From the NCBI RefSeq assembly GCF_020141465.1, contig NZ_JAHSPD010000001.1, forward strand, positions 682,001 through 746,000: a DNA stretch of 64,000 nucleotides, written 5' to 3'. Below are positions 2,864 to 63,144 of the stretch, piece by piece. The position numbers were made by a program, and so were the translations under genes. Source of the stretch: Roseovarius carneus (lineage in GTDB: Bacteria; Pseudomonadota; Alphaproteobacteria; Rhodobacterales; Rhodobacteraceae). Under the pieces are notes generated by a model, which was not told where the DNA came from, did not search any database, and worked only from the letters and a program-made list of their open reading frames with translations. How positions within the stretch are numbered: position 1 is the stretch's first letter; each line of letters starts with the position of its first letter.

Positions 2864-3258
2864 CCTTCTTGGATGCTCTGCAAATACGCGACAAGCGCCG
2901 CCAAAGGACGCGGCGTGGGCGTCATCACCCCGTCGCCCGTATCCACCGGGACCATCTCGCCCGTAAGCAAAAGCCCGAATTCCGGCATTTCCTGACCCGG
3001 CAGTGCTGCGCGGTGATAGCCGTCGATCGTGCTCAGCACGCGGGTGGTAGGAAACGCGCTGCCCATGCCGAGTGTGGTCAGATCGCTCGGCGCAGGCGAC
3101 ATGCCTTTAGACCACGGACCATCACCCTTGCCCGACGGGCCATGGCATTGCGCACAATTCTCAAGGTAGAGCACACGCCCCTCGGACGGGGCCGGCATGT
3201 CGACCTGCGCACAAGCCGCGATTGCAGCCACAATGGCCAAGGGGACATAAATCTTCAT
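2860..3258 (-). CDS. Lipoprotein-type monohaem cytochrome c
   Basis: 132 residues from an ATG preceded by GGAGGT. The N-terminus is a short signal with lipobox AIAAC (Cys near residue 16), so the protein is probably an inner- or outer-membrane-anchored periplasmic lipoprotein. One haem attachment site, CAQCH, follows, and GQEMPEF supplies a plausible distal Met ligand. The size and motifs fit a class I c-type cytochrome electron carrier. No oxidase or dehydrogenase partner is next to it, so its redox partner cannot be inferred. An upstream in-frame start exists but would hide the signal peptide. The gene converges with the helicase, and the two stop codons overlap. Confidence 0.85.
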   Translation of the reverse strand: MKIYVPLAIVAAIAACAQVDMPAPSEGRVLYLENCAQCHGPSGKGDGPWSKGMSPAPSDLTTLGMGSAFPTTRVLSTIDGYHRAALPGQEMPEFGLLLTGEMVPVDTGDGVMTPTPRPLAALVAYLQSIQEG

Positions 3259-3318
3259 CTCGCACCTCCGATTTTCGCCCAGAATGGCGCGGCTATCACT
3301 CACCTGCCTTGATCTGGC

Positions 3319-4902
3319 TCAACTGCCTGAGGTCAGCTTGCCCGCCAGCGCGTCATCAATCAACCGGATCGTCTCTTCAACCCCGTAAAGCGCAATAAAC
3401 CCGCCGAAGCGCGGCCCTTGGGACGCACCCAACAGAACCTCGTAAAGTGCCTTGAACCACCCTTTGAGCGGGTCAAAACGGTCGCGCCCCTCGGCATAGA
3501 CAATGCCCTGAAGCGTCTCGTCGTCTCGCGGTCCGTCATGCGTCGCCAATGCATCGCGCAGGGCGATCAAAGCCTCGCGCTCTTGCTCGGTCGGGGGGCG
3601 GTAGGTTTTTGCGGGCTTCACGAAATCATTGTAATAGGCCACGGCAAACCCAGCCGCCTGATCCAGATCGGGATGCGTCTCCGGCGACGCGTCAGGAGCA
3701 TAACGCTGGATAAAGCCCCACAAATGTGTCTTGTCCTCGGCCCCCGCGACCGACGCGAGGTTGAGCAACATAGAGAACGGCACGACCATATGGCTCTCTG
3801 GCACGTCCCCGCCATGGATATGCCAGACCGGGTTATTGGCCCGCTGCGCCGCATCCTGCCCCACATAGGCGCGCAATTGCTGGTGATATTCGTCCACCGC
3901 TTTGGGGATCACATCAAAATGCATCCGCTTGGCCGTCTTCGGCTTGAGATACATGAAATAGCTCAGGCTCTCGGTCGAGGCATAGGTCAACCACTCGTCA
4001 ATGCTGATCCCGTTGCCCGAAGATTTGGAGATTTTCTGGCCATTCTCATCAAGGAAAAGCTCATAGCTGAAATGCTCAGGCTTGCGCCCGCCAAGGATCT
4101 CGCAAATCCGGTCATAGATCGCAGTATTCGTCGCGTGCTCCTTGCCATACATCTCAAAATCAACATCCAGCGCGGCCCAGCGCGCGCCGAAATCCGGCTT
4201 CCATTGCAGCTTCACATTGCCGCCCGTCACAGGCAACGTCCACTCACGGCCATCTTCGTCATCAAAGGTTACCGTATGATTGACGCCATCCACATTTTTC
4301 ATCGGCACATAAAGAACACGGCCCGTTTTGGGATGGATCGGCAGAAAGATGGAATAGGTCTGCTGCCGCTCGTCCCGCAGCGATTTTAACATAACCTTCA
4401 TCACTTCGTCATAGCGTTCACAGGCCCGGCGCAGAATCTCGTCAAACTGACCAGAGGCATAGAACTCCTTGGCCGAGTAGAACTCATACTCAAAGCCAAA
4501 CGCGTCCAGAAACCGCCGCAGCATGGCATTATTGTGGTGGCCGAAGCTTTCATGCGTGCCGAACGGGTCGGGCACGGATGTCAAAGGCCTGTGCATATGC
4601 TCGGCCAACATCTCCTGCTGGGGCACATTGCCCGGCACTTTGCGCATCCCGTCGAGATCGTCGGAAAAGCAGATCAGCTTGGTTGGAATATCGCTGATCA
4701 CCTCAAAGGCGCGCTGCACCATCGTGGTGCGCAACACCTCGCCAAACGTGCCGATATGCGGCAGGCCGGACGGCCCGTATCCCGTCTCGAAAAGCACATA
4801 ACCCTTCTCGGGTGGTGTCTTTTCGTAGCGTTTGAGAACCCGGCGCGCTTCTTCGAAAGGCCAAGCTTTGGAAGTCATCGCGGCGTCGCGCAGATCGGAC
4901 AT
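3319..4902 (-). CDS. lysS: Lysyl-tRNA synthetase, class I
   Basis: 527 residues. Charges tRNA-Lys in the cytosol. This is the class I (archaeal-type) LysRS, normal for alphaproteobacteria and unrelated to the class II E. coli enzyme. The Rossmann-fold signatures are visible: HIGT at residues 49-52 and KISKS at 290-294. The start MSDLRDAA is chosen because AGGAG lies just upstream; a longer reading of 10 codons is possible but has no ribosome-binding site. It is divergent from the TerB-like gene across about 120 bp. Length and motifs indicate an intact enzyme. Confidence 0.95.
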
Positions 4903-14395: not shown

Positions 14396-16988
14396 CGACA
14401 TTCACGATCCGTCCGGGGACGACGATGACTTTCTTGGGCTGCGCCCCATCCAGCGCACGGATCACAGCATCAAGCGCAAGGGCGGTTTTTTCAACCTCGT
14501 CTTTGGGCATATCAGCAGGCACGTTGATCTCCGCCCGCCGTTTGCCGTTAATCTGCACGGGCAAGGTGATCATGGCATCGACGAGCATGGCCTCATCAGC
14601 CTCAGGCCACGGCGCGGTGGCGGCGAGACCAGTATGGCCGAGCATGTGCCACAGTTCCTCGGCCAGATGCGGCGTCATGGGCGACATGAGCTGCGCCAGC
14701 GCGCTGGCCGCCTCGCGCTTTGCGGTGCCGCCAGCGGTGGATTTCGCAAGGGTCGCCGTGAAGGCATAAAGCCGCGCAATGGCCGCGTTGAAGCCAAACG
14801 CCTCAACCCCCGCCGTGACTGCCTGAATGGTCTTGTGCATCTCACGCAAGAGCGCCTCATCGGCCTCTGGTGAGGCGTCCTCGGCTGAGGCCACGATCTC
14901 GGACACAATGCGGTGCACGCGGGCGAGGTGCTTATGCGCGGCCTCTGCGCCAGATGCCGTCCACTCCACGTCCCGCTCGGGCGGGCTGTCCGACAAGACA
15001 AACCACCGGGCAGTATCCGCGCCATAGTCGGAAATGATGCTGATCGGATCGACGACATTCTTCTTGGATTTGGACATTTTAGCGGAGGGGATGATTTCTA
15101 CTTCCCGACCATCTTCTTTGAGGAACGCCTTACCATCACGCAAATCAACCTCTTCAGGGAGCCTATACTTGGTGTATTTCACTCCAGGTCTGAGGTTAGG
15201 GTTGGGGTCATTTTCTCCCACAACTTCTACGGTCTGATAAATCTCATGCGTCACCATGCCTTGGGTGAAGAGCGCATCAAACGGCTCGATGGCTTTTTGC
15301 GGCAGGTGCCCAGTGATCTGCATCGCACGGGCGAAAAAGCGCGAATAAAGCAGGTGCAGGATCGCGTGTTCCACCCCGCCGATATACTGATCCACGTTCA
15401 TCCAGTAGGACGCCGCATCCAAATCCGTAGGCGTGTCCGCATGGGGCGCGGTGAAGCGGGCAAAATACCATGAGCTGTCCACGAATGTGTCCATCGTATC
15501 CGTCTCGCGCCGGGCGGGCGCGCCGCATTTCGGGCAGGGCGTGTCGCGCCATGTCGGGTGGCGGTCAAGCGGGTTGCCCGGCACATCGAAAGTCACGTCA
15601 TCGGGCAGACGGATGGGCAGGTTTTCCTTTGCCTCAGGCACGACGCCGCAGGTCTCGCAATGCACGACAGGGATGGGGCAACCCCAATAGCGTTGGCGCG
15701 ACAGGCCCCAATCGCGCAGGCGGAATTTGGTGACGCCTTGGCCCACGCCTTGATCCTCGCAGAACGCGATGGCGGCGTCGATCGCCTCAAGGCCCGTCTG
15801 CCATGCCTCGCCTGCGAAGCCTTTGGTGTAGAAGACTTTATCGGTCTTGGGTGGAGCGAACGCCTCATCTAGGTCGGTCGCGCTGTCCTCGGCAGGCAGA
15901 TAGGTCGCAACAATTGGCAGATCGTATTTCCGCGCGAAATCAAAGTCACGCTGGTCATGCGCGGGGCAGCCGAAAATCGCGCCCGTGCCGTAATCCATCA
16001 AGATGAAATTGGCCACATAGACCGGCAGTTCCCAGCTTGTGTCGAACGGATGGCGCACGCGCAGGCCGCTATCAAAGCCCATCTTCTCGGCCGTCTCAAG
16101 CGCCTCTTCCGTGGTGCCGCCCCGGCGACATTCGGCATTGAAGGCCGCAAGCGCAGGGTTGTCCTTCTCCAGCTGCTTGGCCAGCGGATGATCGGGCGCA
16201 ATCCCCAGAAAGCTCGCGCCCATCAGAGTGTCGGGCCGCGTGGTATAGACCTCCACCCGGTCATGGCCCGCAGGCCCGTCAATGAGGCCAAAGGCAAATT
16301 GCAGACCGCGCGATTTGCCGATCCAGTTCTCCTGCATCAGCCGCACCTTGGCCGGCCAATTCTCCAGCCCATCCAGAGCGCCCAAAAGCTCATCGGCCAT
16401 GGACGAGATCGCGAAGAACCACTGCGTCAGCTCACGCCGCTCCACTTCCGCGCCCGAGCGCCAGCCGCGCCCGTTCTCGACCTGCTCATTGGCCAGAACG
16501 GTCATATCCACCGGGTCCCAGTTCACCACCGCGTTCTTGCGGTAGACCAGCCCCGCCTCCAGCATGTCCAAAAACAGCGCCTGTTGCTGCCCGTAATACT
16601 CCGGATCACAGGTGGCAAATTCGCGGGTCCAATCAATCGAGAGGCCAAGCGGCTTCATCTGATCGCGCATGTCCGCGATGTTTTGATAGGTCCAGTCCTT
16701 GGGGTGGCCACCGCTGGCCATTGCGGCATTCTCGGCGGGCATCCCGAACGCGTCCCACCCCATCGGGTGCAGCACGTTATGCCCGGTCGCGATCCGGTGG
16801 CGCGCGATCACATCACCCATGGTGTAGTTGCGCACATGGCCCATATGGATGCGCCCAGACGGATAGGGGAACATCTCCAGCACATAGTATTTGGGCTTCT
16901 CAGACCCGGCCTCGGCGCGGAAAACCCCGGCGGCGTCCCAGGCTTTTTGCCATTTTGCTTCGATCTCGGCGGCGGAATAGCGCGACAT
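14388..16988 (-). CDS. leuS: Leucyl-tRNA synthetase
   Basis: 866 residues, the usual length. Charges tRNA-Leu in the cytosol. HMGH is at residues 48-51, KMSKSKKN lies in the later catalytic half, and the zinc-ribbon CETCGVV / CPKCGAPA segment of the inserted domain is complete. The CP1 editing domain is present ([22 protein letters not shown]). It ends with [13 protein letters not shown], the normal LeuRS tail, so the loss of material between this gene and holA did not damage it. It would normally be first in a leuS-lptE-holA unit. Confidence 0.97.
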
Positions 16989-17134
16989 GGGGGCGGCCCT
17001 CTTCGGTCAGACATGCGTGGCGTTGGTGATAGGCCCAAGGGCGCAGGGCGTCCAGTGGCAAGGGCGCAAAAACCTATGCCTATGCAGGGGGTGGGGCGCT
17101 GCCTATAAAGGGCGAAACTGCGCGGGACAGCACC

Positions 17135-18385
17135 ATGAACATCCTTTTCATCCACCAGAATTTCCCCGGTCAATGGAAGCATCTGGCACCTGCACTTGCA
17201 GCGGCGGGTCATAGCTGCACCGCGCTGACCTTGCGGGTGAAAAAGCAAAGCATGTGGCACGGCGTGCGGGTGCTGCCCTATGCCCTGCCCGAACGCGCGG
17301 CGCAAAAGGTGCATCCATGGCTCGTGGATCTGGATACTAAGGTGACGCGGGCCGAGGCATGTTACCGCGCCGCCGCCCGGATGAAGGCCGAAGGCTATAC
17401 CCCCGATCTCATCCTCGCGCATCCCGGCTGGGGCGAGCCGATGTTCCTGCGCGATCTGTGGCCCGGCGCGCGCATGGCGATCTATTGCGAGCTTTATCAC
17501 AAGCCCGGCAAACCGCATCTCGATTTCGATCCTGAGTTTCAATCCCGCGAGCCCGAGGTGCAGCCGCTGCGCATCCGCCTGAAAAACATCTACAACCACC
17601 TGCATTTCCCTATGGCCGAGGCCGGGATCTCGCCCACGCGGTTTCAGGCGGACACATTCCCACCAGAGTTTCGCGACAAGATCACGGTCAGCCATGATGG
17701 CATCGACACCGTGGCATCGTGCCCCGACGAGGGCGTGCGCGTGCACCTCAAAGGCCACCCGGAATTTACCCGCAAAACCGAGGTGATCACCTTCGTCAAT
17801 CGCAATCTGGAACCCTATCGCGGCTATCACATCTTCATGCGCGCCCTGCCGCGTCTGCTGCGCGAGCGGCCAAATGCGCGGGTGATCCTTATAGGTGGCG
17901 ATGAGGTAAGCTATGGCGCGGCCCCTCCCAAGGGCCAGACATGGAAGCAGATTTTCCGCGATGAGGTGTCGGATCAAATCTCGCCCGAGGATTGGAAGCG
18001 CGTGCATTTTCTGGGCCGCATCCCGCATGGGGATTTCACCCGGATTTTGCAGCTGAGCCGCGTGCACGTCTACCTGACCTACCCGTTCGTGCTCAGTTGG
18101 TCCTTGATGGAGGCGATGTCATGCGGTGCGGCAATCGTCGCCAGCGGGACCGAGCCTGTGCGCGAGGTGATCACCGATGGTGAGACGGGGCGTCTCGTGG
18201 ATTTCTTCGACCGCGAGGCGCTGGTGGATCAGATCGTGGCGCTTTGCGAGGATGCGGACGCCCGCGCCACATTGGGCGCAAACGCACGGACCTTGATGCA
18301 GGATCAGTATGACCTCAAAACCATCTGCCTGCCACGGCAGCTCAAATGGGTGGATGAGGTGATGGATCTGCCCGTCCTGCTCTAG
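17135..18385 (+). CDS. Glycosyltransferase, family 4 type
   Basis: 416 residues with a GT-B fold. The N-terminal Rossmann half starts MNILFIHQNFPGQWKHLAP; the C-terminal half has VHFLGRIPHGDF and SWSLMEAMSCGAAIVAS, the donor-nucleotide-binding EX7E-like region of GT4 enzymes, then EVITDGETGRLV. It transfers a sugar from a nucleotide donor, probably to a surface polysaccharide. No other polysaccharide genes are next to it and acceptor and donor cannot be told. It is divergent from leuS across about 145 bp. Confidence 0.85.
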   Translation: MNILFIHQNFPGQWKHLAPALAAAGHSCTALTLRVKKQSMWHGVRVLPYALPERAAQKVHPWLVDLDTKVTRAEACYRAAARMKAEGYTPDLILAHPGWGEPMFLRDLWPGARMAIYCELYHKPGKPHLDFDPEFQSREPEVQPLRIRLKNIYNHLHFPMAEAGISPTRFQADTFPPEFRDKITVSHDGIDTVASCPDEGVRVHLKGHPEFTRKTEVITFVNRNLEPYRGYHIFMRALPRLLRERPNARVILIGGDEVSYGAAPPKGQTWKQIFRDEVSDQISPEDWKRVHFLGRIPHGDFTRILQLSRVHVYLTYPFVLSWSLMEAMSCGAAIVASGTEPVREVITDGETGRLVDFFDREALVDQIVALCEDADARATLGANARTLMQDQYDLKTICLPRQLKWVDEVMDLPVLL

Positions 18386-18424
18386 TGGTGCTATAGTGCT
18401 GCTCTATTGGTGCTTTAGCCCGCC

Positions 18425-18880
18425 TCAGTCAGATTTTTCGTATACGATCAACGGCGTGCGCGTCGCCACCTGATCATAGAGCATCCGGCCTTTGTAATTG
18501 TCATCCTGCGTGGTCCAATACGTGACCACGATACCCTCCTTTTTGGCCGCAGCATGCACCGCGTTGATCAAGGCACGCGCAACGCCTTTGCCGCGTGCGG
18601 CGGGATCAGTGTAGAGGTCCAAGAGATAACAAGTATCCTCCTCGGACCACAAAAGCCGGTGAAAAAGGAAATGCGCAAGGCCCACGGGCCGCCCCTCCAT
18701 CTCCGCGATGAAGCCCTGAAATTCCCGCGTGTCCTCGATCAGCAATCGCGCGAAAGCGGTCTCATAGACCGCCTCGGACAGCGTGGTGCGATAAAACTCC
18801 AGATAGGCGGTCCACATGCGCGACCACTCCGCGTGGTCTTCGCGCCTGAGCGCCCGGATCGTAATTTCTGCTGTCATCAT
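18425..18880 (-). CDS. GNAT-family N-acetyltransferase
   Basis: 151 residues. The acetyl-CoA-binding motif A is AARGKGVARALINAV (about 93-107, R/Q-x-x-G-x-A type), preceded by the beta4 strand CYLLDLYTDP and followed by VVTYWTTQDDNYKGRMLYDQV, a typical motif B with the Tyr that protonates the leaving thiol. The substrate is unknown. GGGGG precedes the ATG pair. The gene lies between the glycosyltransferase (convergent) and the DUF3576 lipoprotein gene (same strand, about 100 bp upstream). Confidence 0.85.
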   Translation of the reverse strand: MMTAEITIRALRREDHAEWSRMWTAYLEFYRTTLSEAVYETAFARLLIEDTREFQGFIAEMEGRPVGLAHFLFHRLLWSEEDTCYLLDLYTDPAARGKGVARALINAVHAAAKKEGIVVTYWTTQDDNYKGRMLYDQVATRTPLIVYEKSD

Positions 18881-18980
18881 TCATGTCCCCCTGTTTGATC
18901 ATAGGAGGTGTCATATCCTGGCGGAGGTCAAGCCACGCTGGGATTTGCTCAGTCGGGAGTTTTGCCCGCGCAAGCCGTGA

Positions 18981-19472
18981 TTAGAAATTGCCCGCTTGAA
19001 TCCGCAGCTGCCGCGCACGCGACAATATCGCATCCTCAACCGCGCGTTGGGTTTCCGCGCCCACAGGCCCCGAGCGTGATTGCAGCGCCACGTTCAGGCT
19101 GCGCGCGTCCAAGGCCGGATCGCTGATCAGGATGGTCGCGCGGTAGGCATTGCTGCCACCGGGAGGGGTGCCAAAGCCTGTGGAGATCACGCCCGTAAAG
19201 GGATCAGCCGATTGCACGGGCAGGAAATCAAGCACGTCAAGCGATGCCGTCCAAAGAAAGCGGTTCACCTTCACGCCCGCGTCTTTGCCACGGAACGCAT
19301 CAAAGAGGCTGGTGCCCGAGGTCACACCCACATTGGACTCGCGCCCACCCTTCAGGGTGATCGCCTCCTGGTCCAGCGTCGGGGGCTCATCGCCACAGGC
19401 CGCAACAACCAAGGTTGCCAGCACCAATGCGCTACGCTTTGCAAAAGTCAGGATCATACCGCCCACCGCCAT
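18981..19472 (-). CDS. DUF3576 lipoprotein
   Basis: 163 residues. The N-terminus has a lipoprotein signal ending LVVAAC, so the mature protein is probably anchored in the envelope with the lipidated Cys near residue 26. The body contains FLWTASLDVLDFLPVQSADPFTGVI and ends in a RARQLRIQ helix, the layout of DUF3576 proteins, which have no assigned role and in Rhodobacterales sit near leuS-lptE-holA. Here it is separated from leuS by two other genes. An ATG five codons in (19457) is an equally possible start. Confidence 0.75.
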   Translation of the reverse strand: MAVGGMILTFAKRSALVLATLVVAACGDEPPTLDQEAITLKGGRESNVGVTSGTSLFDAFRGKDAGVKVNRFLWTASLDVLDFLPVQSADPFTGVISTGFGTPPGGSNAYRATILISDPALDARSLNVALQSRSGPVGAETQRAVEDAILSRARQLRIQAGNF

Positions 19473-19642
19473 TAACTTCTTCTTTTCCTAGTATCCAACC
19501 GCGCCCCGAGGGGCAAGCTGTTTAGCCTCACGTCCCCTCCCCCGCCTGTGGGGTGTGGCCCGATCGCGCCGATTGGTGGTTTGCAAGTTATCGGCGCTGG
19601 ATTACCTATCGGGTAAATACGCAATCCCCCGGAGCCGCCACC

Positions 19643-20299
19643 ATGAGCCTTGCCGATATCACTACCCGCATCACCAAAGCCGAGGCTGCGGCCGGGCGCG
19701 CGCCCGGTTCGGTGCATCTCATTGCCGTCTCCAAAGTGCAGCCCAATGAGCGGGTCGCCGCCGTTCTGGGCGAGGGGCATCGCTGTTTCGGCGAGAACCG
19801 CGTGCAGGAAGCGGCGGGTAAATGGCCCAGCTTCCGCGAGGCATATGCAGGTGTCGACTTGCACCTGATCGGACCCTTGCAAAGCAACAAGGTGCGGCAG
19901 GCTTTTGGGCTTTTTGACGCCATCCACTCCCTAGACCGCCCCAAGCTTGCCACCGCCATCGCGCGGATTGCACAAGAAGAAGGCAGTTGCCCCAAGGTGT
20001 TTGTACAGATCAACACCGGGGAGGAGCCGCAAAAGGCGGGTGTCCTGCCGGGCGGGGCGGATGCGATGATCGCCGAGTGTCGCGCGCTTGATCTGCCCAT
20101 CGAGGGGTTGATGTGTATCCCGCCCGCCGAGGAAGAACCCAGCCTGCATTTCGCACTTCTGGCTAAGATTGCCGAGCGCAACGGGTTGAGCGGCCTCTCG
20201 ATGGGCATGAGCAGCGATTTCGAGAGCGCGATTGCACTTGGTGCGACCCATGTCCGCGTGGGCAGCGCCATTTTCGGCGCGCGTGTGGCCGCAGGCTGA
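19643..20299 (+). CDS. YggS-family PLP-binding homeostasis protein
   Basis: 218 residues. A small TIM-barrel PLP protein (PROSC/YggS) with no known catalysis, needed for balanced vitamin B6 and branched-chain metabolism. The PLP lysine is in HLIAVSKVQP; FGENRVQE, HLIGPLQSNK and GLSMGMSSDFESAI (phosphate cup) are the canonical blocks, and VRVGSAIFGAR closes the barrel. Length is normal. GGAG lies about 12 bases before the ATG. It is divergent from the DUF3576 gene. Confidence 0.92.
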   Translation: MSLADITTRITKAEAAAGRAPGSVHLIAVSKVQPNERVAAVLGEGHRCFGENRVQEAAGKWPSFREAYAGVDLHLIGPLQSNKVRQAFGLFDAIHSLDRPKLATAIARIAQEEGSCPKVFVQINTGEEPQKAGVLPGGADAMIAECRALDLPIEGLMCIPPAEEEPSLHFALLAKIAERNGLSGLSMGMSSDFESAIALGATHVRVGSAIFGARVAAG

Positions 20300-28470: not shown

Positions 28471-29169
28471 TCAATCGACACGGCGCACCATCAGCTGATT
28501 GCCCTCGCGACGGGTTTCCAGCACCTTCAGCGCCTTGACCAGATCGCTCAGCTTTTTGTGACCGTAGCTGCGCGTGTCGAAATCCGGTGTGGCGGTGGTG
28601 ATCTGTTGGCCTAGTTGGCCCAGAGAGTACCAATCGCTGTCCTGATCGAGGCTATCCATTGCCTTAAAGAGCAGGTCGCGCGCCTCGTTGAGGTTTTTGC
28701 CCGTGGCCTGAGGCGCGACCCCTTCCGGCGCGCCACCAAGATTTTCGAGATAAATAAACCGTTTGCACGCCTTGCGGAACGCATCGGGCGTTTTGCGCGC
28801 GCCAATGCCGAAGACATCCAGCCCCTGTTCACGGATACGGCTGGCCAGACGAGTGAAATCGCTGTCGGATGAGACGAGGACGAACCCGTCAAAGCGGTTT
28901 GAGTGCATCAGATCCATCGCATCGATCACAAGCGCAATGTCGCTCGCGTTCTTGCCCACTGTGTTGGCGGGTTGGTGATGCGGGACGAGGCCAAACTCGG
29001 CCTGCACCTTGCTCCACCCGTTCATCTGTTGCGAGGAGAAGTCGCCGTAGCAGCGGCGCACGGACGCCTCGCCCATGCCTGCGATCTCATCAAAGATCGC
29101 TTGGGTCCATTTGGGCGAGGTGTTGTCGGCATCAATCAGAACAGCGAGCAGGGGCGTCTGGTTTACCAT
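28471..29169 (-). CDS. NYN-domain nuclease with C-terminal OST-HTH/LOTUS domain
   Basis: 232 residues. The N-terminal PIN-like NYN domain has LAVLIDADNTSP (catalytic Asp residues near 11-13), ASDIALVIDAMDLM and VSSDSDFTRLASRIRE, the acidic metal-binding set of LabA/DUF88-type RNases. The last 70 residues (LLFKAMDSLDQDSDW ... YGHKKLSDLVKAL) match the OST-HTH/LOTUS fold that binds RNA. The combination suggests an RNA-processing or RNA-silencing nuclease. A second, shorter NYN protein is encoded at 60133-60714. AGGAGAT precedes the ATG. Confidence 0.88.
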   Translation of the reverse strand: MVNQTPLLAVLIDADNTSPKWTQAIFDEIAGMGEASVRRCYGDFSSQQMNGWSKVQAEFGLVPHHQPANTVGKNASDIALVIDAMDLMHSNRFDGFVLVSSDSDFTRLASRIREQGLDVFGIGARKTPDAFRKACKRFIYLENLGGAPEGVAPQATGKNLNEARDLLFKAMDSLDQDSDWYSLGQLGQQITTATPDFDTRSYGHKKLSDLVKALKVLETRREGNQLMVRRVD

Positions 29170-55980: not shown

Positions 55981-56631
55981 TCAGGCTATTTGCTCGCGCA
56001 AGGCGATCACGGCGGCTTGGGTTCGATTTTTTGCGCCCATCTTGTTACAAATGCCCCGCATGTGCATTTTTACAGTCACCTCAGTCATTTGCAAATCGCG
56101 GGCGATTTCCTTGTTCGACTGTCCAGCACAAACTTTGCGAAGTACTTTCAGCTCGTTCTGCGACAACCCAAAATTCATGGCCCCGCCGGCCTCTGCTGTA
56201 CTGTTTAGGAAGGACGACGGGATAAACACTTCGCCCGAGGCAATAAGGCGGATCGTGTTCAACAGAGACTTGAAAGGGAGTGTTTTGGGAATATACCCTC
56301 TCGCTCCCTGCTCCAGTGCATCTTTCACATATTCGTCGGTTGTGCTTCCCGAAAAAACAACAATTGCAGTTTCTGGGAATTTTCTGACAAGAGCTCCGAG
56401 GCTGCTTATGCCGTCCATGCCAGGCATCTTCACATCCAGCAGGACAACGTCAAAAGCTTTGTTTGCGCTCAAAGCTTCAAGTGCTTCGGGGTAGCTTGAT
56501 ACTGCGGTTATATCGAAATCAGGCTGGGCGTCGATGAACGCACCGATCATGTCGCGCACCAGTTGGTGATCATCCGCAATGAGAATTGAAATACTCGCAT
56601 TGTGTGGAAAATCGAACATAGCAGCGCTCAT
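55981..56631 (-). CDS. LuxR/NarL-type response regulator
   Basis: 216 residues. Receiver domain: acidic pair near 20-21 (ILIADDHQL), phospho-acceptor D66 in VVLLDVKMPG, then VVFSGS and YIPKTLPF with the conserved Ser and Lys. The C-terminal LuxR HTH is LSQNELKVLRKVCAGQSNKEIARDLQMTEVTVKMHM, read in parts. Divergent from the molybdopterin-fold / hybrid kinase operon; the natural end of that phosphorelay, which finishes in an Hpt domain. It probably binds sites in the 196-bp AT-rich gap. Confidence 0.92.
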   Translation of the reverse strand: MSAAMFDFPHNASISILIADDHQLVRDMIGAFIDAQPDFDITAVSSYPEALEALSANKAFDVVLLDVKMPGMDGISSLGALVRKFPETAIVVFSGSTTDEYVKDALEQGARGYIPKTLPFKSLLNTIRLIASGEVFIPSSFLNSTAEAGGAMNFGLSQNELKVLRKVCAGQSNKEIARDLQMTEVTVKMHMRGICNKMGAKNRTQAAVIALREQIA

Positions 56632-56669
56632 TTCTTCAACCTTTCTTGCATTTTCAACCGCTATCTAAA

Positions 56670-56684
56670 TGGGAGCTAAGATTG
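56670..56684 (+). promoter_or_regulatory. Shared 15-bp motif, copy 1
   Basis: TGGGAGCTAAGATTG, followed by AAG. The same 15 bases occur reversed at 61835-61849 upstream of the receiver-like/NYN operon. Both copies point towards their operon, here the + strand operon starting at 56828. Candidate site for the locus's response regulator. Confidence 0.45.
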
Positions 56685-56744
56685 AAGATAGGCCGAAAAT
56701 TTTCTCATTAGCCCAAAAGATTTTATCTCTAGGCTTGATTTTGT

Positions 56745-56764
56745 ATCTAAAGATATCTTTAGAT
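56745..56764. promoter_or_regulatory. Perfect 20-bp palindrome in the divergent promoter
   Basis: ATCTAAAGATATCTTTAGAT, perfectly self-complementary, 63 bp before the molybdopterin-fold gene. The surrounding sequence repeats ATCT/TAG elements. A dimeric LuxR-type regulator is the natural candidate to bind it. Confidence 0.5.
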
Positions 56765-56827
56765 TCTTTCGGCAACTATGCAACAAGGCGGAGTATCTTT
56801 GCATAATCCTTACGGGGAGACATCACG

Positions 56828-57388
56828 ATGACGGCACGCCCCAGAAATAAGGCACGTGAAACGGTCAACGCCGCGCGGCGCTCGCTTGTGTTGTCGGCAC
56901 CGCTTCTGATCTTGTCCGGCCACTTACTGCGCGCGCAAGAAACGCCCTTACCCCAACCGGTAGGGCCAGTGACACTGACGATAGACGGCGACATTTCCAT
57001 CACGAATGGGGGCGGCACTGCGGTATTTGATGACGCAATGCTTGGCGATCTGCCCAGCGTTTCGTTTGAAACCTCGACTGTCTGGACCGATAGCATCAGT
57101 ACATTTTCAGGGCCGACGCTACGCAGCGTTCTTGACCGTGTCGGAGCAGGGCCGGGCAACATCACCGCCATGGCCATAAACAAATATGAAGCAAGCATTT
57201 CGCAAGAATATATTCTTGATAACGCACCCATTATTGCCAACCGTCTGGACGGGGCACCGTTTGGACTCCGTCAAAAAGGCCCCTTGTGGGTCATATTTCC
57301 ATACGATTCCGATATTACCTTTCGTACCAAAAAAATTTACGCGATGAGCATCTGGCAGTTGGAAAAGCTCACTGTTACCACAGGCTGA
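56828..57388 (+). CDS. Secreted molybdopterin-oxidoreductase-fold protein without cysteine
   Basis: 186 residues, with an N-terminal Arg-rich region then LVLSAPLLILSGHLLRAQ as an export signal. The body (TLTIDGDISITN ... GPTLRSVLDRVGAG ... AMAINKYEASISQEYIL ... PLWVIFPYDSD) follows the small oxidoreductase molybdopterin-binding fold of SUOX/YedY relatives. There is no Cys anywhere, so the Mo-ligating residue of true enzymes is missing and catalysis is unlikely. Placed 3 bp before the sensor kinase, it is more probably a periplasmic ligand-binding partner. GGGGAG precedes the ATG. Confidence 0.75.
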   Translation: MTARPRNKARETVNAARRSLVLSAPLLILSGHLLRAQETPLPQPVGPVTLTIDGDISITNGGGTAVFDDAMLGDLPSVSFETSTVWTDSISTFSGPTLRSVLDRVGAGPGNITAMAINKYEASISQEYILDNAPIIANRLDGAPFGLRQKGPLWVIFPYDSDITFRTKKIYAMSIWQLEKLTVTTG

Positions 57389-57391
57389 TCC

Positions 57392-59002
57392 ATGTTTGAG
57401 CATACAAGACGTGCGAAATGGTACGACAAAATGGTGCCGAACTGGGCTATTGTAACATGCCTAGTTTTGGTCCCTTTGATGCTAATTTTTCTAGGTTTTT
57501 ATTATAGCAATCTGAAAAATACGGCAGATGACTTTAAGTATGTAAGGTCTGACAATGGTGCCTGGCCGATTACCCAACTCGAAGTAGACTATCAAAATTT
57601 GCGGCTGTCATTGGCACGCGATTTGGCAAATTCGCGCGCCGGAAAAGCCGTTAGCCCAGAAGCAATCAAGCGATCGTTTGACATTTATTATAGCAGGCTG
57701 AACGTAAATCGCGCGCTTTATGGGTCGGATTCAAAAGGCCAAGACCACAAGACGCGCTCTATTCTTGAGCGGCTTACAGACCATAGAGATGCCCTTGCGC
57801 TCCAGATTGATACGCTAGAGACGCTGAGCGAGACTAATTTAGCGGAGCTTCTGGCACAGGCTGACATCGTAGAAGATGATATACGCAGATACTCGACAAT
57901 GTCCTTGGCTTTGCTTGTCCAAGAGGCCACCCACGAACGCGATACAATGCTCACGATCATATTTCGCCATGCTGAGCTTCTCTATCTGGTGGTCGCGTTA
58001 CTTATGGTCAAAATGGCCCTTACCACGCTTGTATACCAGCGTTTAAAAAGCAAGGTGGTGGTCACTGAGCGCACGGCAGAAAGCCTTCAAGGGGTGATCG
58101 ACGCGTCCCAAGATGCAGTGGTGATCACAAGTGCAAGTGGTCACATTGCGGCTTATAATGCAGCTGCCGAAACCATCTTTGGGTACACGGCAACCGAAGC
58201 AATTGGCGCGAAAATGGAAGAGCTCTTCATTCCAGCGCGAACGAGAAACGCACATCTGGAGTGCATAAAGACCTACCTTGAAACGGGCCAAAGCAAGTGG
58301 ATCAATTCGGGCCGCCATATAATGGCAGTCTGCGATAAAGCCGGCCGCGAATTTTCGGTGGAAGTCACTATTGCCTCAAGCAGGGGCGACCAAGACGAGA
58401 AGATCTTTATCAGTGTGTTAAGGGACATATCCCCGCGGATCAATGCCGAAGAAAAGTTGCGCCGCACGGCCGAGATTGCCAAGCGAGACGCAATGGCCAA
58501 GCAGCAGTTTCTGGCCGTCATGAGCCACGAAATGCGAACGCCTTTGCAGGGTGTGCTTGCAACGTTCGATCTGTTAGAAACTGACATGACCACACCGGAT
58601 CAGAAAGACCTTCTAACGCTTGGAAAACGCTCGGGCATGAAGGCGTTGGAGCAGATAAACAACACGCTTGAACTGGCGCGCCTCAGTGACTGCCGTGTGG
58701 TGCGACAAAACAATATTATCTCCCCGACCGGGTTGCTGTTCGGTCTTGTTACACTGCTTGAGCCACTGCTTTTGAAAAATGGTAACAAGATCGTCCTCAA
58801 GACGGCTCGGGACGTTCCGGTGCGTGTGCTGGGCAACCAATGCCTATTCACATCAGTCTTCGATAACCTTCTGGCAAACGCCAATAAATTCACAAAAATG
58901 GCCAAATCACCGTTTGCGTTGATATGGTCGAGATCGACGGCAAGGCAGATGTTCAAATTGCCGTCAAAGATACAGGCATCGGGATTGACCCCGCAAAGCT
59001 GA
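57392..59002 (+). CDS. Hybrid histidine kinase, 5' part (sensor, PAS, HisKA; frameshifted in HATPase)
   Basis: Membrane segment at about 19-41, periplasmic helical region 42-190, second membrane segment 191-213, PAS domain from 233 (VIDASQDAVVITSASGHIAAYN), HisKA with H379 in MSHEMRTPLQG, and the start of the ATPase domain (VFDNLLANANKFTK at the N-box). From 58898 the frame departs into MAKSPFALIW and stops at 59002, whereas the -1 frame continues NGQITVCVDMVEI and the rest of the kinase. The break is at a run of five A. With the next entry it forms a single kinase of about 868 residues. Confidence 0.8.
   Translation: MFEHTRRAKWYDKMVPNWAIVTCLVLVPLMLIFLGFYYSNLKNTADDFKYVRSDNGAWPITQLEVDYQNLRLSLARDLANSRAGKAVSPEAIKRSFDIYYSRLNVNRALYGSDSKGQDHKTRSILERLTDHRDALALQIDTLETLSETNLAELLAQADIVEDDIRRYSTMSLALLVQEATHERDTMLTIIFRHAELLYLVVALLMVKMALTTLVYQRLKSKVVVTERTAESLQGVIDASQDAVVITSASGHIAAYNAAAETIFGYTATEAIGAKMEELFIPARTRNAHLECIKTYLETGQSKWINSGRHIMAVCDKAGREFSVEVTIASSRGDQDEKIFISVLRDISPRINAEEKLRRTAEIAKRDAMAKQQFLAVMSHEMRTPLQGVLATFDLLETDMTTPDQKDLLTLGKRSGMKALEQINNTLELARLSDCRVVRQNNIISPTGLLFGLVTLLEPLLLKNGNKIVLKTARDVPVRVLGNQCLFTSVFDNLLANANKFTKMAKSPFALIWSRSTARQMFKLPSKIQASGLTPQS
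58894..58898 (+). other. A5 run at the -1 frameshift inside the kinase ATPase domain
   Basis: The frame reads ACA AAA ATG; stepping back one base gives AAA AAT GGC, which restores the conserved NxxxF-K-NGQITV order of HATPase domains. Either one A was lost from an A6 run (mutation or sequencing error), or ribosomes slip here. Confidence 0.75.
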
Positions 59003-59997
59003 CCAGCATCTTTGACGATTTCTCGACCGGAGACGCTGGCTATGCCCGTGTTTCTGAAGGAACAGGCCTTGGGCTAGGGATCGTCAAACGGGCCGCCGAA
59101 AAAATGGGTGGGGAAATCACGGTTGAAAGCGTTTTGGGGAAAGGGAGTGTCTTTACGTTTCGGTGTCGCTTCGATGCCGCCCCCGACGACGTAAGCGGCC
59201 CCGAGCCGGTACCATCGGCCAAAGCAGACGGTAACAAAGCGTCTGAAGTCAAGCCATTGGTGCTTGTGGTGGATGACAATGAGACGAACCGCACTTTGAT
59301 CGGACATATGCTTAAGCGACTGGGCTGCGACTTTGAGCTGGCTGAAGACGGAATGCAAGCGGTCGAGAAATGCCGCGACACTTCGTATGATTTGATCCTG
59401 ATGGATGTCAGTATGCCAAAGATGGACGGCTTTGAGGCCGCGTCAGCCATCTATGAAGTCGGTCTGATGCAGGGGTACATGGTATGTCTGACAGCACATG
59501 CGTCTGATGAAATCCGCACCGCTGTCCAGCACGCAGGCATGAACGAAATGATGATAAAACCGGTCCGGCTTGAGATGATGCAAGAACTTTTGCAGCGCTC
59601 GGTTTTTGCGCGCGATAGACAGGGTGATTGCCAGACGGCTGATACTGTTCACAACCCCATCGACGATCTGATTGAGACTCTCGGCGAGGATAATCTAAGA
59701 GATCTAATCGACCAGTTTGTCGATGATACCCGCGCCGAGCTTAGCAGATTACGCGATCTGCTCGTCGCAGGAGATACCTCCGAAGCGGCCACGATCCTGC
59801 ATAACATCAATGGCAACGCGGGCATGATAGGCGCTCTATCGCTAAGCGCGCTATGTGCCGATCTTGAGGCCGCCGCAACCACAGGAGGGCCAGACTTGAC
59901 TGTAACCGATCTGGACAAGTGCGATGCCTTGCTGGAGGCGTTTCTCACAGACCTAAGATCGCGGGGCATGGGCAGGCGGCAAAAATCCAGCGCCTGA
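58924..59997 (+). CDS. Hybrid histidine kinase, 3' part (HATPase end, REC, Hpt)
   Basis: 357 codons in the -1 frame from the first ATG. VKDTGIGIDPAKLTSIFDDF and GTGLGLGIVKRAAEKMGG are the G1/F/G2 boxes of the HATPase. A receiver domain follows with DDN at 117-119, phospho-acceptor D161 in LILMDVSMPKMDG, and MIKPVRLE. The C-terminal Hpt bundle has the phosphorylatable H293 in ILHNINGNAGMIG. There is no ribosome site of its own at the ATG, so it is normally the back half of the kinase rather than a free protein. Confidence 0.8.
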   Translation: MVEIDGKADVQIAVKDTGIGIDPAKLTSIFDDFSTGDAGYARVSEGTGLGLGIVKRAAEKMGGEITVESVLGKGSVFTFRCRFDAAPDDVSGPEPVPSAKADGNKASEVKPLVLVVDDNETNRTLIGHMLKRLGCDFELAEDGMQAVEKCRDTSYDLILMDVSMPKMDGFEAASAIYEVGLMQGYMVCLTAHASDEIRTAVQHAGMNEMMIKPVRLEMMQELLQRSVFARDRQGDCQTADTVHNPIDDLIETLGEDNLRDLIDQFVDDTRAELSRLRDLLVAGDTSEAATILHNINGNAGMIGALSLSALCADLEAAATTGGPDLTVTDLDKCDALLEAFLTDLRSRGMGRRQKSSA

Positions 59998-60132
59998 AGC
60001 AAAACGCGGCCCTACATATACCGATCGTCACTACTTGATGCGGTTACAACGTAAGCAAATAAATAGCATTTTAAATTGCAACTGTTGATAAAAGGCGAAC
60101 GTCATTCAAACTATATTTTCCGAAACGGTCTG

Positions 60133-60714
60133 CTAACTAAAGGCTTCTGCTGGTACTTTGATTTGCCCGTCATTCAGATCAAAATCGCGGGGTGGACGCC
60201 CTATGATATCTTTCAGGGCGTCAAGTTCGATGAAGTGGTCTGCCTGCCGCCGCAGATCATCAGATGCCATCGCGGGGGAAGTTTTGACGGTCGAAACGAT
60301 AGACACCCGCCGCCCCATGCGCTGCAAACACGCCACAAGAGACCGGAAATCTCCATTTCCCGAAAAAAGAACGACATGGTCAACATGTGGAGCGATTTCG
60401 ACGGCATCGACGGCCAGCTCCACGTCTATGTTCCCTTTAATCTTTCGCTGACCAGCCCCATCGACGAATTCGCGGGCGGGTTTCGTGTGTACCGAGAAAC
60501 CATTATATTGCAGCCAGTCCAAAAGAGGTTGAACTGGAACGAAATCATCTTGCTCAAGCAAGGTCGTGTAGTAGCGCAGAGATAAGAGCCGGCCTCTTCG
60601 GGCGAACTCGTTGCGCAACAATTTATAGTCAATATCAAAGCCTAGTGCTTTAGACGTCGAAAACAGATTTGGCCCATCAATGAAAATCGCCAGCCGCTCA
60701 TCTTTATAAAACAT
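60133..60714 (-). CDS. NYN-domain (LabA/DUF88-type) protein
   Basis: 193 residues. PIN-like RNase fold: LAIFIDGPNLFSTSKALG (first catalytic Asp), KGNIDVELAVDAVEIA and VVLFSGNGDFRSLVACLQRMGRRV, the acidic set of LabA relatives. Length and absence of a LOTUS domain distinguish it from the NYN protein at 28471. Third gene of a minus-strand operon after two receiver-like proteins, 42 bp downstream, which suggests RNA-level output of a signalling pathway. In cyanobacteria LabA acts in circadian output; no such role is claimed here. Confidence 0.85.
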   Translation of the reverse strand: MFYKDERLAIFIDGPNLFSTSKALGFDIDYKLLRNEFARRGRLLSLRYYTTLLEQDDFVPVQPLLDWLQYNGFSVHTKPAREFVDGAGQRKIKGNIDVELAVDAVEIAPHVDHVVLFSGNGDFRSLVACLQRMGRRVSIVSTVKTSPAMASDDLRRQADHFIELDALKDIIGRPPRDFDLNDGQIKVPAEAFS

Positions 60715-60756
60715 GACTTCTCCAATTACGTTTTACTCAAAGCTCAAGGCTACCGG

Positions 60757-61383
60757 TCATCCCGGTAGACCCTCGGGGTAGGTGCTTCTTGGGAACTGCA
60801 GGCACGGCTCCGACTGCGATGGCGTGATCGAGGCAGTCCAATCGCGGTTATTGGCGTCAGCAGCTTGCAGCGCTATCTTCAAACGCTCACTACTTACCGG
60901 GGCGCGTAGAGTAACATCACCAACTTGTTTGCGATGTCCACCAAGATCATCATTCAGCACAACCGAAGAGACCATCAGGACCCGCACAGTTGGGAATGAA
61001 GTGCGAAACGTCATGAGCGTATCAACTGCCCTATCGACCGAGTCGAACGCATCAATGTTGATGACAATATGGCTGAAGGTATTAGACACTTCGGTCAATT
61101 GCGCGATATCTTCGGCACTGCAGGAGGTTGCACAAGATTCTACAGATGCATCACGCAACATCTGCATCATCCTTGTCGCTTCAGTCCGCGTAAAGCCAAT
61201 AATGCAGGCAGAGCCACGCAAATCGGTTGAGCTTGGGTCCGCGTCCCACTGGTGACTCTTAGACGATGCATGATCTGAATTGCCCAATCCCAGCCAGCGC
61301 ACAAGACGGCTCGGCTTTTTGTTGGCGGGATGGGGTGATTTTTCGTCCGCACCAGGAAAAGGAATTACTTTGAAGGCTGTCAT
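60757..61383 (-). CDS. Degenerate receiver-like protein A
   Basis: 208 residues from an ATG at 61383. The middle follows the receiver alternation: beta1 ACIIGF, helix TEATRMMQMLRDA, beta3 HIVINIDAFDS, beta4 VRVLMVSSVV, beta5 VTLRAPVSSERLKIAL. An Asp is present at the acceptor position (INIDAF), but the N-terminal acidic pair is missing and the beta5 Lys is Arg, so normal phosphorylation is doubtful. A basic N-terminus and Pro/Ser-rich end flank the domain. It starts 4 bp after the next gene's stop. Confidence 0.6.
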   Translation of the reverse strand: MTAFKVIPFPGADEKSPHPANKKPSRLVRWLGLGNSDHASSKSHQWDADPSSTDLRGSACIIGFTRTEATRMMQMLRDASVESCATSCSAEDIAQLTEVSNTFSHIVINIDAFDSVDRAVDTLMTFRTSFPTVRVLMVSSVVLNDDLGGHRKQVGDVTLRAPVSSERLKIALQAADANNRDWTASITPSQSEPCLQFPRSTYPEGLPG

Positions 61384-61387
61384 GCAA

Positions 61388-61801
61388 TCACCCTTCGATT
61401 GAAACAAAAGAAATGCCGGCAGCCACAAGCACATCACGGGCATCGTTGAATTCTAAATACTCAAAGTCATCGGGGTCCGGACAATGCGGCGCGAAGCCTG
61501 TCAAAACGCAAACCGCAGCCTCTGGATAGCTTGCGCGCATCGCATTTATTTTTCCTGCCCAATTATCCTGCTCCCAACTTTGCGAATCGAGGATAATCAG
61601 TGGAGTTTCGCCCAGATCATGCCGATCGAGGCCGGTGAAAACCGTCAGGCCCAATGCTTGCAAAATAGATCGCCAGCGCGTCAGATCCGAATTAAGGCCA
61701 CTTAGATAGTAGACGTCCCTATCCTCAATGGCCCAGAAGCCACCGGATACCATAGCACATCGCGCCACCATGGTCTGGGGTACACATTCAGGGTCTGACA
61801 T
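61388..61801 (-). CDS. Degenerate receiver-like protein B
   Basis: 137 residues from MSDPECVPQ. It shows a receiver-like order: VYYLSG, helix TRWRSILQALG, LTVFTGLD, TPLIILDSQSW (Asp at the acceptor position), AAVCVLTGF, and GISFVSIEG where the conserved Lys would be. The acidic pocket of beta1 is absent. A TTG start at 61837 would add 12 residues. First gene of the operon with protein A and the NYN protein. The fold call is an inference from pattern only. Confidence 0.5.
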   Translation of the reverse strand: MSDPECVPQTMVARCAMVSGGFWAIEDRDVYYLSGLNSDLTRWRSILQALGLTVFTGLDRHDLGETPLIILDSQSWEQDNWAGKINAMRASYPEAAVCVLTGFAPHCPDPDDFEYLEFNDARDVLVAAGISFVSIEG

Positions 61802-61834
61802 ATTAGAGGTCGAATGGTCTAACACAGCCTCCTC

Positions 61835-61849
61835 CAATCTTAGCTCCCA
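61835..61849 (-). promoter_or_regulatory. Shared 15-bp motif, copy 2
   Basis: The reverse strand reads TGGGAGCTAAGATTG, followed by GAG, 34 bp before the receiver-like gene at 61801 and pointing towards it. Identical to the copy at 56670-56684. Confidence 0.45.
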
Positions 61850-62639: not shown

Positions 62640-62873
62640 ATGCGTAGACGGTACGTGCCAATTACCGAAGATCCTAGAGAGGATGCATTTGATTATGATC
62701 CAAGCACCTCCGTCGTCGGCTTCTCCGTTCATAGTGACGCCGAGTTTTTTTGTATCTCTGATGACGACAATATTCGCAAGATGAGCAGTTGGTGGATAAT
62801 TCCACTTCTGTTTTTCAGTATATTAATATGGCTCTTCATTCTTAACGAGGTGTTTTCCTGGCTGCCGTCGTGA
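62640..62873 (+). CDS. Small single-span membrane protein
   Basis: 77 residues. A polar, acidic N-terminal part (YVPITEDPREDAFDYDP) and one C-terminal hydrophobic helix (WWIIPLLFFSILIWLFIL, about 51-68), so probably a tail-anchored inner-membrane peptide. GGAGAGG lies 8 bases before the ATG, which is the main reason to believe it. Not recognised; its surroundings are debris. Confidence 0.5.
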   Translation: MRRRYVPITEDPREDAFDYDPSTSVVGFSVHSDAEFFCISDDDNIRKMSSWWIIPLLFFSILIWLFILNEVFSWLPS

Positions 62874-62925: not shown

Positions 62926-63144
62926 TTATTGATGGTTGAATGCACTCACAAAGAGACTCATCCTATTCACCAACGGCTTCCTCAAATACCACCCGACCTG
63001 GCGGTTTTCCCGCCGTTTCCGGATCGCATTAGACGTAAGCTCAATCGCATTGTCGCTGACCACCACGTAGGGATATCCACGCATCCCAGAGATCCACCCA
63101 GTACACGAGTAACATGAGCACCCAAGAGGGGCGTAATCAACCAC
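62926..63144 (-). pseudogene. IS3-family transposase remnant
   Basis: The frame reads RGYPYVVVSDNAIELTSNAIRK, then NRQVGWYLRKPLVNRMSLFVSAFNH. This parallels the integrase core of IS3-type OrfB proteins, with SDN as the second catalytic Asp (DNG-x-E-x-T/S), then W...PGKP-x-QN...ESFN. The key positions around GKP and ESFN are altered, and neither ends nor the rest of the gene remain. A short piece of a dead insertion sequence. Confidence 0.6.

Follow-up and report, generated by a model that had tools for sequence, protein, structure and literature searches.

PruR proteins are described in the review PMC13259868 as having a SUOX fold without the molybdenum-binding cysteine, and a pterin site made of Trp, Tyr and Asn. 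According to the same text, the structure 7KOS is that of PruR from the PruR-DcpA system of Agrobacterium tumefaciens, and pairs of PruR and a kinase, of which Ruegeria pomeroyi DSS-3 provides an example, are named PruR-DTB (DcpA-TorS-BaeS). Gene surveys have documented PruR-DTB systems, and their response regulator, operator and output are not named in the part of PMC13259868 that is accessible. The present analysis concerns a locus of this kind in Roseovarius carneus (Rhodobacteraceae), in a stretch of 64,000 nucleotides referred to as the window (NZ_JAHSPD010000001.1, positions 682,001 to 746,000). The primary paper on PruR is said to be that of Greenwich and colleagues (PNAS 2024). The locus is best read as encoding a pterin-responsive PruR-DTB phosphorelay with an accessory pseudo-receiver module, the output of which is likely surface attachment and which is perhaps decaying in this genome; our confidence in this reading as a whole is somewhat better than even.

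Novelty lies in the LuxR regulator as partner, in the operator proposed for it, and in a module consisting of open reading frame (ORF) 6, ORF7 and a small membrane protein. For the PruR-DTB systems of one bacterial family we propose a LuxR-type response regulator encoded divergently, an operator of the form CTATCC-N4-GGATAG, and outputs suggested by the neighbouring genes, which are fibre or secretion, flagellin, and efflux genes. A small undescribed receiver-like family, that of ORF6, is also tied to some of these systems. Literature searches, with most subscription papers outside their coverage, found no paper describing ORF6, the operator or the pairing with a LuxR regulator.

The PruR-type sensor and its hybrid kinase

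An initial annotation, made from the sequence alone, had proposed a new signalling system of six genes in two facing arms. Its gene order, strands and spacing from 55981 to 61849 are correct. The evidence supports the phosphorelay that it postulated, with envelope sensing and output through the LuxR regulator, and identifies it as PruR-DTB, a kind that is already published and not new. The arm on the plus strand and the divergent regulator comprise the following features.

55981 to 56631, minus strand: LuxR/NarL-type response regulator with REC and GerE domains (Pfam Response_reg 6e-25, GerE 1.5e-17)
56745 to 56764, strandless: perfect 20-bp palindrome ATCTAAAGATATCTTTAGAT, candidate operator, about 73 bp 5' of pruR
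56828 to 57388, plus strand: PruR-type periplasmic protein of 186 residues, apparently secreted and without cysteine, SUOX fold by homology (phmmer and profile searches)
57392 to 59002, plus strand: DTB-type hybrid kinase, part 1, with the periplasmic WX7D motif, PAS, HisKA and the start of the ATPase domain
58924 to 59997, plus strand: DTB-type hybrid kinase, part 2, in a different frame, with HATPase, REC and Hpt

When the 56828 product was compared with PDB sequences using phmmer, the matches were 7kos and 7kou (E 1.1e-26), 7rkb (E 2.2e-22), 7kom and 7kp2. A profile of 16 PruR relatives matched the solved pterin-binding structures with E 1e-49. Residues N118, Y120 and W176 are invariant in the alignment of these 16 sequences, and the product contains no cysteine at all. 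Paired by context alone, W176, Y120 and N118 correspond to the Trp160, Tyr104 and Asn102 given in the accessible part of PMC13259868. What had been annotated as a cofactor-less molybdopterin-fold sensor is, judged by homology, a PruR-type protein, which would bind a pterin here as well. The molybdopterin label finds an echo in a weak Oxidored_molyb match (E 0.022, below the Pfam cut-off), which is explained by the PruR-type identity of the protein, and 12 of the 16 PruR family members match this Pfam entry.

The kinase gene follows pruR after 3 bases, and the two products constitute, by their sequence relationships, a PruR-DTB system. The traits in common are the immediate succession of pruR and the kinase, a periplasmic motif akin to that of DcpA, and the PAS, HisKA, HATPase and REC domains. 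The window system differs by an extra Hpt domain, by a broken kinase frame, and by its periplasmic motif WPITQLEVD, that is WX7D, where WX7E is given in the accessible part of PMC13259868. It adds the linked module of ORF6, ORF7 and small membrane protein, and its divergent LuxR regulator and proposed operator are not mentioned in that part of the paper. In the kinases compared, the Trp of the motif is present in 48 of 48, with Gln at position +4 in 45 and Glu at +6 in 43, and the +8 position is Glu or Asp in all 46 rows that show it. The A. tumefaciens PruR-DcpA system has a sensor of the same PruR family, with the conserved Asn, Tyr and Trp and no cysteine, but possesses cyclic di-GMP domains where the window system has kinase domains. 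Neither part of the window's kinase gave a Pfam match to GGDEF or EAL.

The kinase had been annotated as a single PAS-HisKA-HATPase-REC-Hpt protein. All five domains are indeed matched by Pfam, PAS and HisKA as well as HATPase, REC and Hpt, over two reading frames: a frame change had been overlooked. The ORF starting at 57392 stops within the ATPase domain, and the remainder is read from 58924 in another frame. The break is near 58890-58925, at a run of A, and may be either a real mutation or a sequencing error.

A divergent LuxR regulator beside PruR in relatives

PruR matches were found in 42 of 80 relatives by a single-protein search and in 112 of 198 genomes of the family by a profile search, with the own genome counted in both cases. 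A sample of 51 PruR loci was examined, consisting of the window, 20 loci from the single-protein matches, one from Marivita, and 29 from high-scoring profile matches; it is not random, and the genomes G103 and G227 presented below are outside it. The kinase is directly 3' of pruR in 48 of these loci, and a divergent LuxR regulator is found within 2.5 kb of pruR in 38. The presence of REC and GerE domains in the regulator of the window, part of the initial annotation, was confirmed with Pfam.

Inspection by eye of four loci with PruR and the kinase and without a nearby LuxR regulator (L036, L037, L039 and L041) showed an apparent sigma-54 activator beside them, and a flagellin gene adjoining three of them. 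Apparent RND efflux genes, also recognised by eye, come after the triad of PruR, kinase and regulator in L048, L050 and L051.

Candidate operators upstream of pruR

A search for palindromes in 31 intergenic regions between the regulator and pruR revealed CTATCC-N4-GGATAG in several of them. With up to two mismatches and gaps of 0 to 8 bases, the CTATCC/GGATAG pair is present in 16 of the 31, versus 0.79 expected from the remainder of the same loci. Since the pattern had been derived from these intergenic regions, it was checked on 22 fresh regions upstream of pruR. With at most one mismatch and a gap of 4 bases, it was found in nine of these held-out regions versus about 0.25 expected, the background being 41 sites per 1.65 Mb in all fetched stretches, including these promoters and overlapping copies. 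Thirteen of the held-out loci have a regulator no more than 3 kb away, and eight of these carry the site, as does one of the nine that have no such regulator. L036, L037, L039 and L041 all lack it. L040, L142, L149 and L160 are among the PruR loci that carry it 5' of pruR.

The window has the perfect 20-base palindrome ATCTAAAGATATCTTTAGAT instead, 73 bases before pruR, and the corresponding intergenic region of Marivita contains CTATCTTAAGATAG. We propose these sequences 5' of pruR as candidate binding sites of the LuxR regulator.

A proposed accessory module with a predicted receiver fold

The facing arm and its surroundings comprise the following features, including two copies of a 15-mer, one of which is located in the regulator-pruR interval.

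56670 to 56684, plus strand: 15-mer TGGGAGCTAAGATTG, copy one, in the regulator-pruR interval (exact-copy counts in window and genome)
60133 to 60714, minus strand: NYN (PIN-like) protein, the second copy of the genome (Pfam NYN 1.9e-37, whole domain)
60757 to 61383, minus strand: ORF6, predicted receiver-fold protein without phosphoacceptor, or pseudo-receiver (AlphaFold2 model, Foldseek, VIA-align and alignments)
61388 to 61837, minus strand: ORF7, small partner of ORF6; an alternative GTG start is possible at about 61825
61835 to 61849, minus strand: 15-mer TGGGAGCTAAGATTG, copy two, at the start of the ORF7-ORF6 unit
62640 to 62873, plus strand: small protein of 77 residues that has a single membrane helix at its C-terminus and contains a WWI.P motif, without Pfam match
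62926 to 63144, minus strand: transposase-like remnant, by its likeness, judged by eye, to a copy further right; no Pfam match

The remnant at 62926-63144 resembles a transposase that we take to be of the IS3 type.

Neither ORF6 nor ORF7 matched Pfam or NCBIfam at E 0.1. The Pfam matches of 16 ORF6 relatives are all weak, and the commonest is Response_reg, matched by three of them (best E 0.0092); the ORF6 of the window does not. In the AlphaFold2 model of ORF6, 108 of 208 residues have a predicted local distance difference test score (pLDDT) of 90 or more, and the first 45 residues are below 50. The best Foldseek match of the model is 4dad, a CpaE-like pilus-assembly receiver (E 7.9e-6). Superposition with VIA-align, the list of which concerns the receiver part of ORF6 only, gave a Z of about 14 and a root-mean-square deviation of 2.6 over 115–118 residues, with many CheY-like chains tied. 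ORF6 is predicted on this basis to adopt a receiver fold. The initial annotation had considered the two products as a receiver-like pair, which the model bears out for the 60757 product and leaves unconfirmed for the 61388 product, as the model of ORF7 (pLDDT 49) was too poor for use. A search of PDB sequences with the ORF6 profile gave weak matches only, the best being designed TIM barrels, and was set aside.

CpaE/TadZ proteins consist of an atypical receiver followed by a MinD-like ATPase. Their receiver domains (4dad, 4dn6, 4myr) have the receiver fold in common with ORF6, but ORF6 has no ATPase match, no link between the sequence families was found, and the score is tied with those of ordinary CheY-like receivers. 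At the end of strand 3, ORF6 has an Asn where several relatives have an Asp, and the family alignments show no acidic pair in ORF6 after strand 1. Phosphorylation of this protein is therefore unlikely.

The ORF6 profile found 28 strong places (E < 1e-14) in 23 of the 198 family genomes, and a profile of a five-row ORF6 alignment found seven loci in a search of genome contigs. Some ORF6 relatives have predicted membrane helices of their own. The ORF7 family is present in two of the 198 genomes (the window's and G156), was absent from all 79 other relatives searched, and is weakly matched in a Gemmobacter contig (20% identity, E 7e-4); in these three cases ORF7 is directly 5' of ORF6. The small membrane protein gene at 62640-62873, which was not in the initially annotated set, recurs beside ORF6 relatives, with counterparts in G156, G116 and G144. 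A search for the WWI.P motif over the fetched loci found only the window and these three genomes. Their proteins also rank first by alignment score among 48 small proteins with a C-terminal helix, the next being that of Marivita at 45 and the first unrelated one at 36. ORF6, ORF7 and the 62640-62873 protein form a module. A small protein with an apparent helix-turn-helix is found near ORF6 relatives in L083, L094, L101, L106, L107 and L108, with a weak MarR_2 match in L094.

Occasional linkage of the module to PruR and to fibre or secretion genes

ORF6 is 3.4 kb from PruR in the window and within about 3 kb of it in G103, G227, G029 and Marivita, four genomes in which the arrangements of ORF6 beside the triad differ. 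The family set holds two such cases in addition to the window, where a hand estimate gives an expectation of about 0.05. The two arms had been linked initially by a motif common to their upstream regions. This motif is real: the 15-mer TGGGAGCTAAGATTG has its sole two exact copies in the genome at these positions. The link between the arms is supported by this 15-mer together with the ORF6 relatives beside the PruR triad in the four other genomes. When up to two mismatches were allowed, one further place was found in the genome, and the pattern read backwards also found one. With up to three mismatches, the three places found in the window versus a shuffle mean of 1.43 were no better than shuffles. 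The two exact copies alone are distinctive. Random pairs of size-matched regions of the window shared at least 15 bases in 7 of 2897 draws.

Four genomes have CsgG-family or curlin-repeat genes in the vicinity of a relative of ORF6 or PruR. A CsgG-family gene is about 4 kb away from ORF6, ORF7 and the small protein in G156; about 10 kb away in G144, where ORF6 is accompanied by a pair of LuxR regulators, the small protein and a large hybrid kinase; and about 5 kb away from a PruR triad in G228. CsgG matches occur in 17 of the 198 family genomes. In Marivita, the triad is accompanied by two ORF6 copies, and a curlin-repeat protein is encoded beside the kinase (Pfam E 4.6e-6). Fibre loci comparable to these curli neighbours are those of the HfaA/HfaB type in Caulobacter. 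The triad and ORF6 of G227 and G029 adjoin a set of genes for an ATP-binding cassette (ABC) exporter and an HlyD-like protein, which we interpret as a type I secretion system; in G227, the exporter neighbourhood also encodes an RTX haem-peroxidase-like protein. The ORF6 of G219 comes after an ABC exporter/HlyD-like transporter pair. In total, at least six ORF6 relatives are near curli/CsgG or type I secretion genes, whereas for the majority neither kind was recognised nearby, the remaining ORF6 stretches having been compared with each other without gene-by-gene annotation. Several ORF6 places are by core genes, one of which resembles the gene of ribosomal protein S1.

Large proteins are encoded in two of the loci. 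In L076, positions 680-4159 encode a GAF/PAS hybrid kinase of 1159 residues, flanked on either side by a LuxR regulator and adjacent to ORF6, with a CsgG-like gene in the vicinity; PruR had no match in this stretch. In L091 (G227, Aestuariivita), the sequence at 15000-19901 encodes a large RTX protein that includes a haem peroxidase domain of the animal type, and the exporter genes and the PruR triad are close by.

Proposed mechanism and competing explanations

It is presumed that secreted PruR would bind a reduced pterin and dock onto the periplasmic domain of the kinase. Phosphate would then pass from His to Asp and on to the His of Hpt, with an Asp in the LuxR regulator as its last acceptor; this regulator may act at the palindrome between its own gene and pruR. 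ORF7, ORF6 and the 62640 membrane protein would be an accessory module, probably under the same LuxR regulator, in which ORF6 may serve as a pseudo-receiver adaptor and not as a phosphate carrier. As such modules are beside curli/CsgG-type fibre or type I secretion genes in some relatives, we infer that the output is likely surface attachment. A bolder and rather unlikely extension, offered tentatively, is that ORF6, ORF7 and the WWI.P protein together make up a pseudo-receiver module, tethered to the membrane and not described before, which connects to PruR-DTB phosphorelays (and to similar PruR-less LuxR ones) and through which the redox state of periplasmic pterins would govern the production of surface fibres or secreted adhesins.

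Several observations weigh against the preferred interpretation of the locus. The kinase is frame-broken in this genome. CTATCC-N4-GGATAG is not in the window, nor was it found in 15 of the 31 intergenic regions and 13 of the 22 held-out regions. No counterpart of the 15-mer pair, of 12 bases or more, was found in the selected regions of G103, G227, G029 and Marivita. Among the 28 strong ORF6 places, three (window, G103 and G227) have a listed PruR place at a distance of 5 kb or less, and four have recognisable fibre or secretion genes nearby. CsgG and curlin had no match in the window's own genome, and no gene of either kind was recognised by eye in or near the window locus. The PruR systems beside flagellin or RND efflux genes, which are without ORF6, indicate that attachment is not the sole output.

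The broken kinase frame and the lack of a CsgG or curlin match in the genome suggest that the locus may be decaying. By this account the kinase is inactivated, fibre or secretion genes have been lost, the transposase-like remnant on the right is debris of a mobile element, and the rest of the locus awaits loss. It would require that fibre genes were once present in the window locus, which is an assumption. The kinase domains past the break score well and the other genes are open, which makes it just as plausible that the break is recent or stems from a sequencing error. We regard decay as a serious possibility that falls somewhat short of even.

It is possible, at a lower level of likelihood, that the 15-mer pair is not an operator and instead marks a rearrangement around 56670-61849, as its inverted ends or as relics of it. 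The two copies are mutually inverted and bound the segment from pruR to ORF7, and the pair has no counterpart in the checked regions of the four relatives; this last point may indicate either a relic or an operator confined to this lineage. Against a rearrangement, both copies sit in upstream regions, and no equal flanking duplications were seen by eye at the copies, on which ground a transposon was rejected.

We consider it unlikely that the two arms are chance neighbours, the one a PruR-DTB system of the usual sort and the other an ORF6/ORF7 module independent of it. Such independence would account for the 25 strong ORF6 places out of 28 that are not near a listed PruR place, and for the ORF7-ORF6 pair of G156, which has no PruR alongside. 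It fits poorly with the four other genomes in which ORF6 is beside the triad in differing arrangements, with the small number of further cases expected, and with the 15-mer common to both arms. The link between ORF6 and PruR is real but occasional.

The NYN gene

Pfam confirmed the NYN domain annotated initially in the 60133 product, which is thereby a member of the family with putative RNase activity. The gene is on the strand of ORF6 and begins 42 bases after it. The family is present in 188 of the 198 family genomes, with 63–70% identity in the rows listed, and the own genome has two copies, that of the window and G000:C1:266099. Among the places listed, no relative has NYN within 19 kb of PruR or ORF6 by eye, the nearest NYN-PruR pair in relatives being that of G172, at about 20 kb, and NYN had no match in the scanned loci with triad and ORF6 of G103, G227, G029 and Marivita. 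As it is nearly universal and, among the listed places, distant from PruR and ORF6 in relatives, the NYN gene appears to be a bystander and is probably unrelated to the system.

The initial annotation had gone further and postulated one six-gene system with a LuxR transcriptional output and an RNA-level output through the NYN protein, the receiver-like pair acting as adaptor to the nuclease; the adjacency to ORF6 and the whole domain match are in its favour, but NYN was rejected as an output on the distribution of its family over the genomes and the listed places, the six genes were together in none of the loci examined elsewhere, with the NYN gene as the odd one out, and we hold this system to be very improbable. 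Another protein (MVNQTPLLAVLIDADNT...), separate from the two NYN copies and seemingly NYN/LabA-like by eye, is encoded at 28471-29169 of the window.

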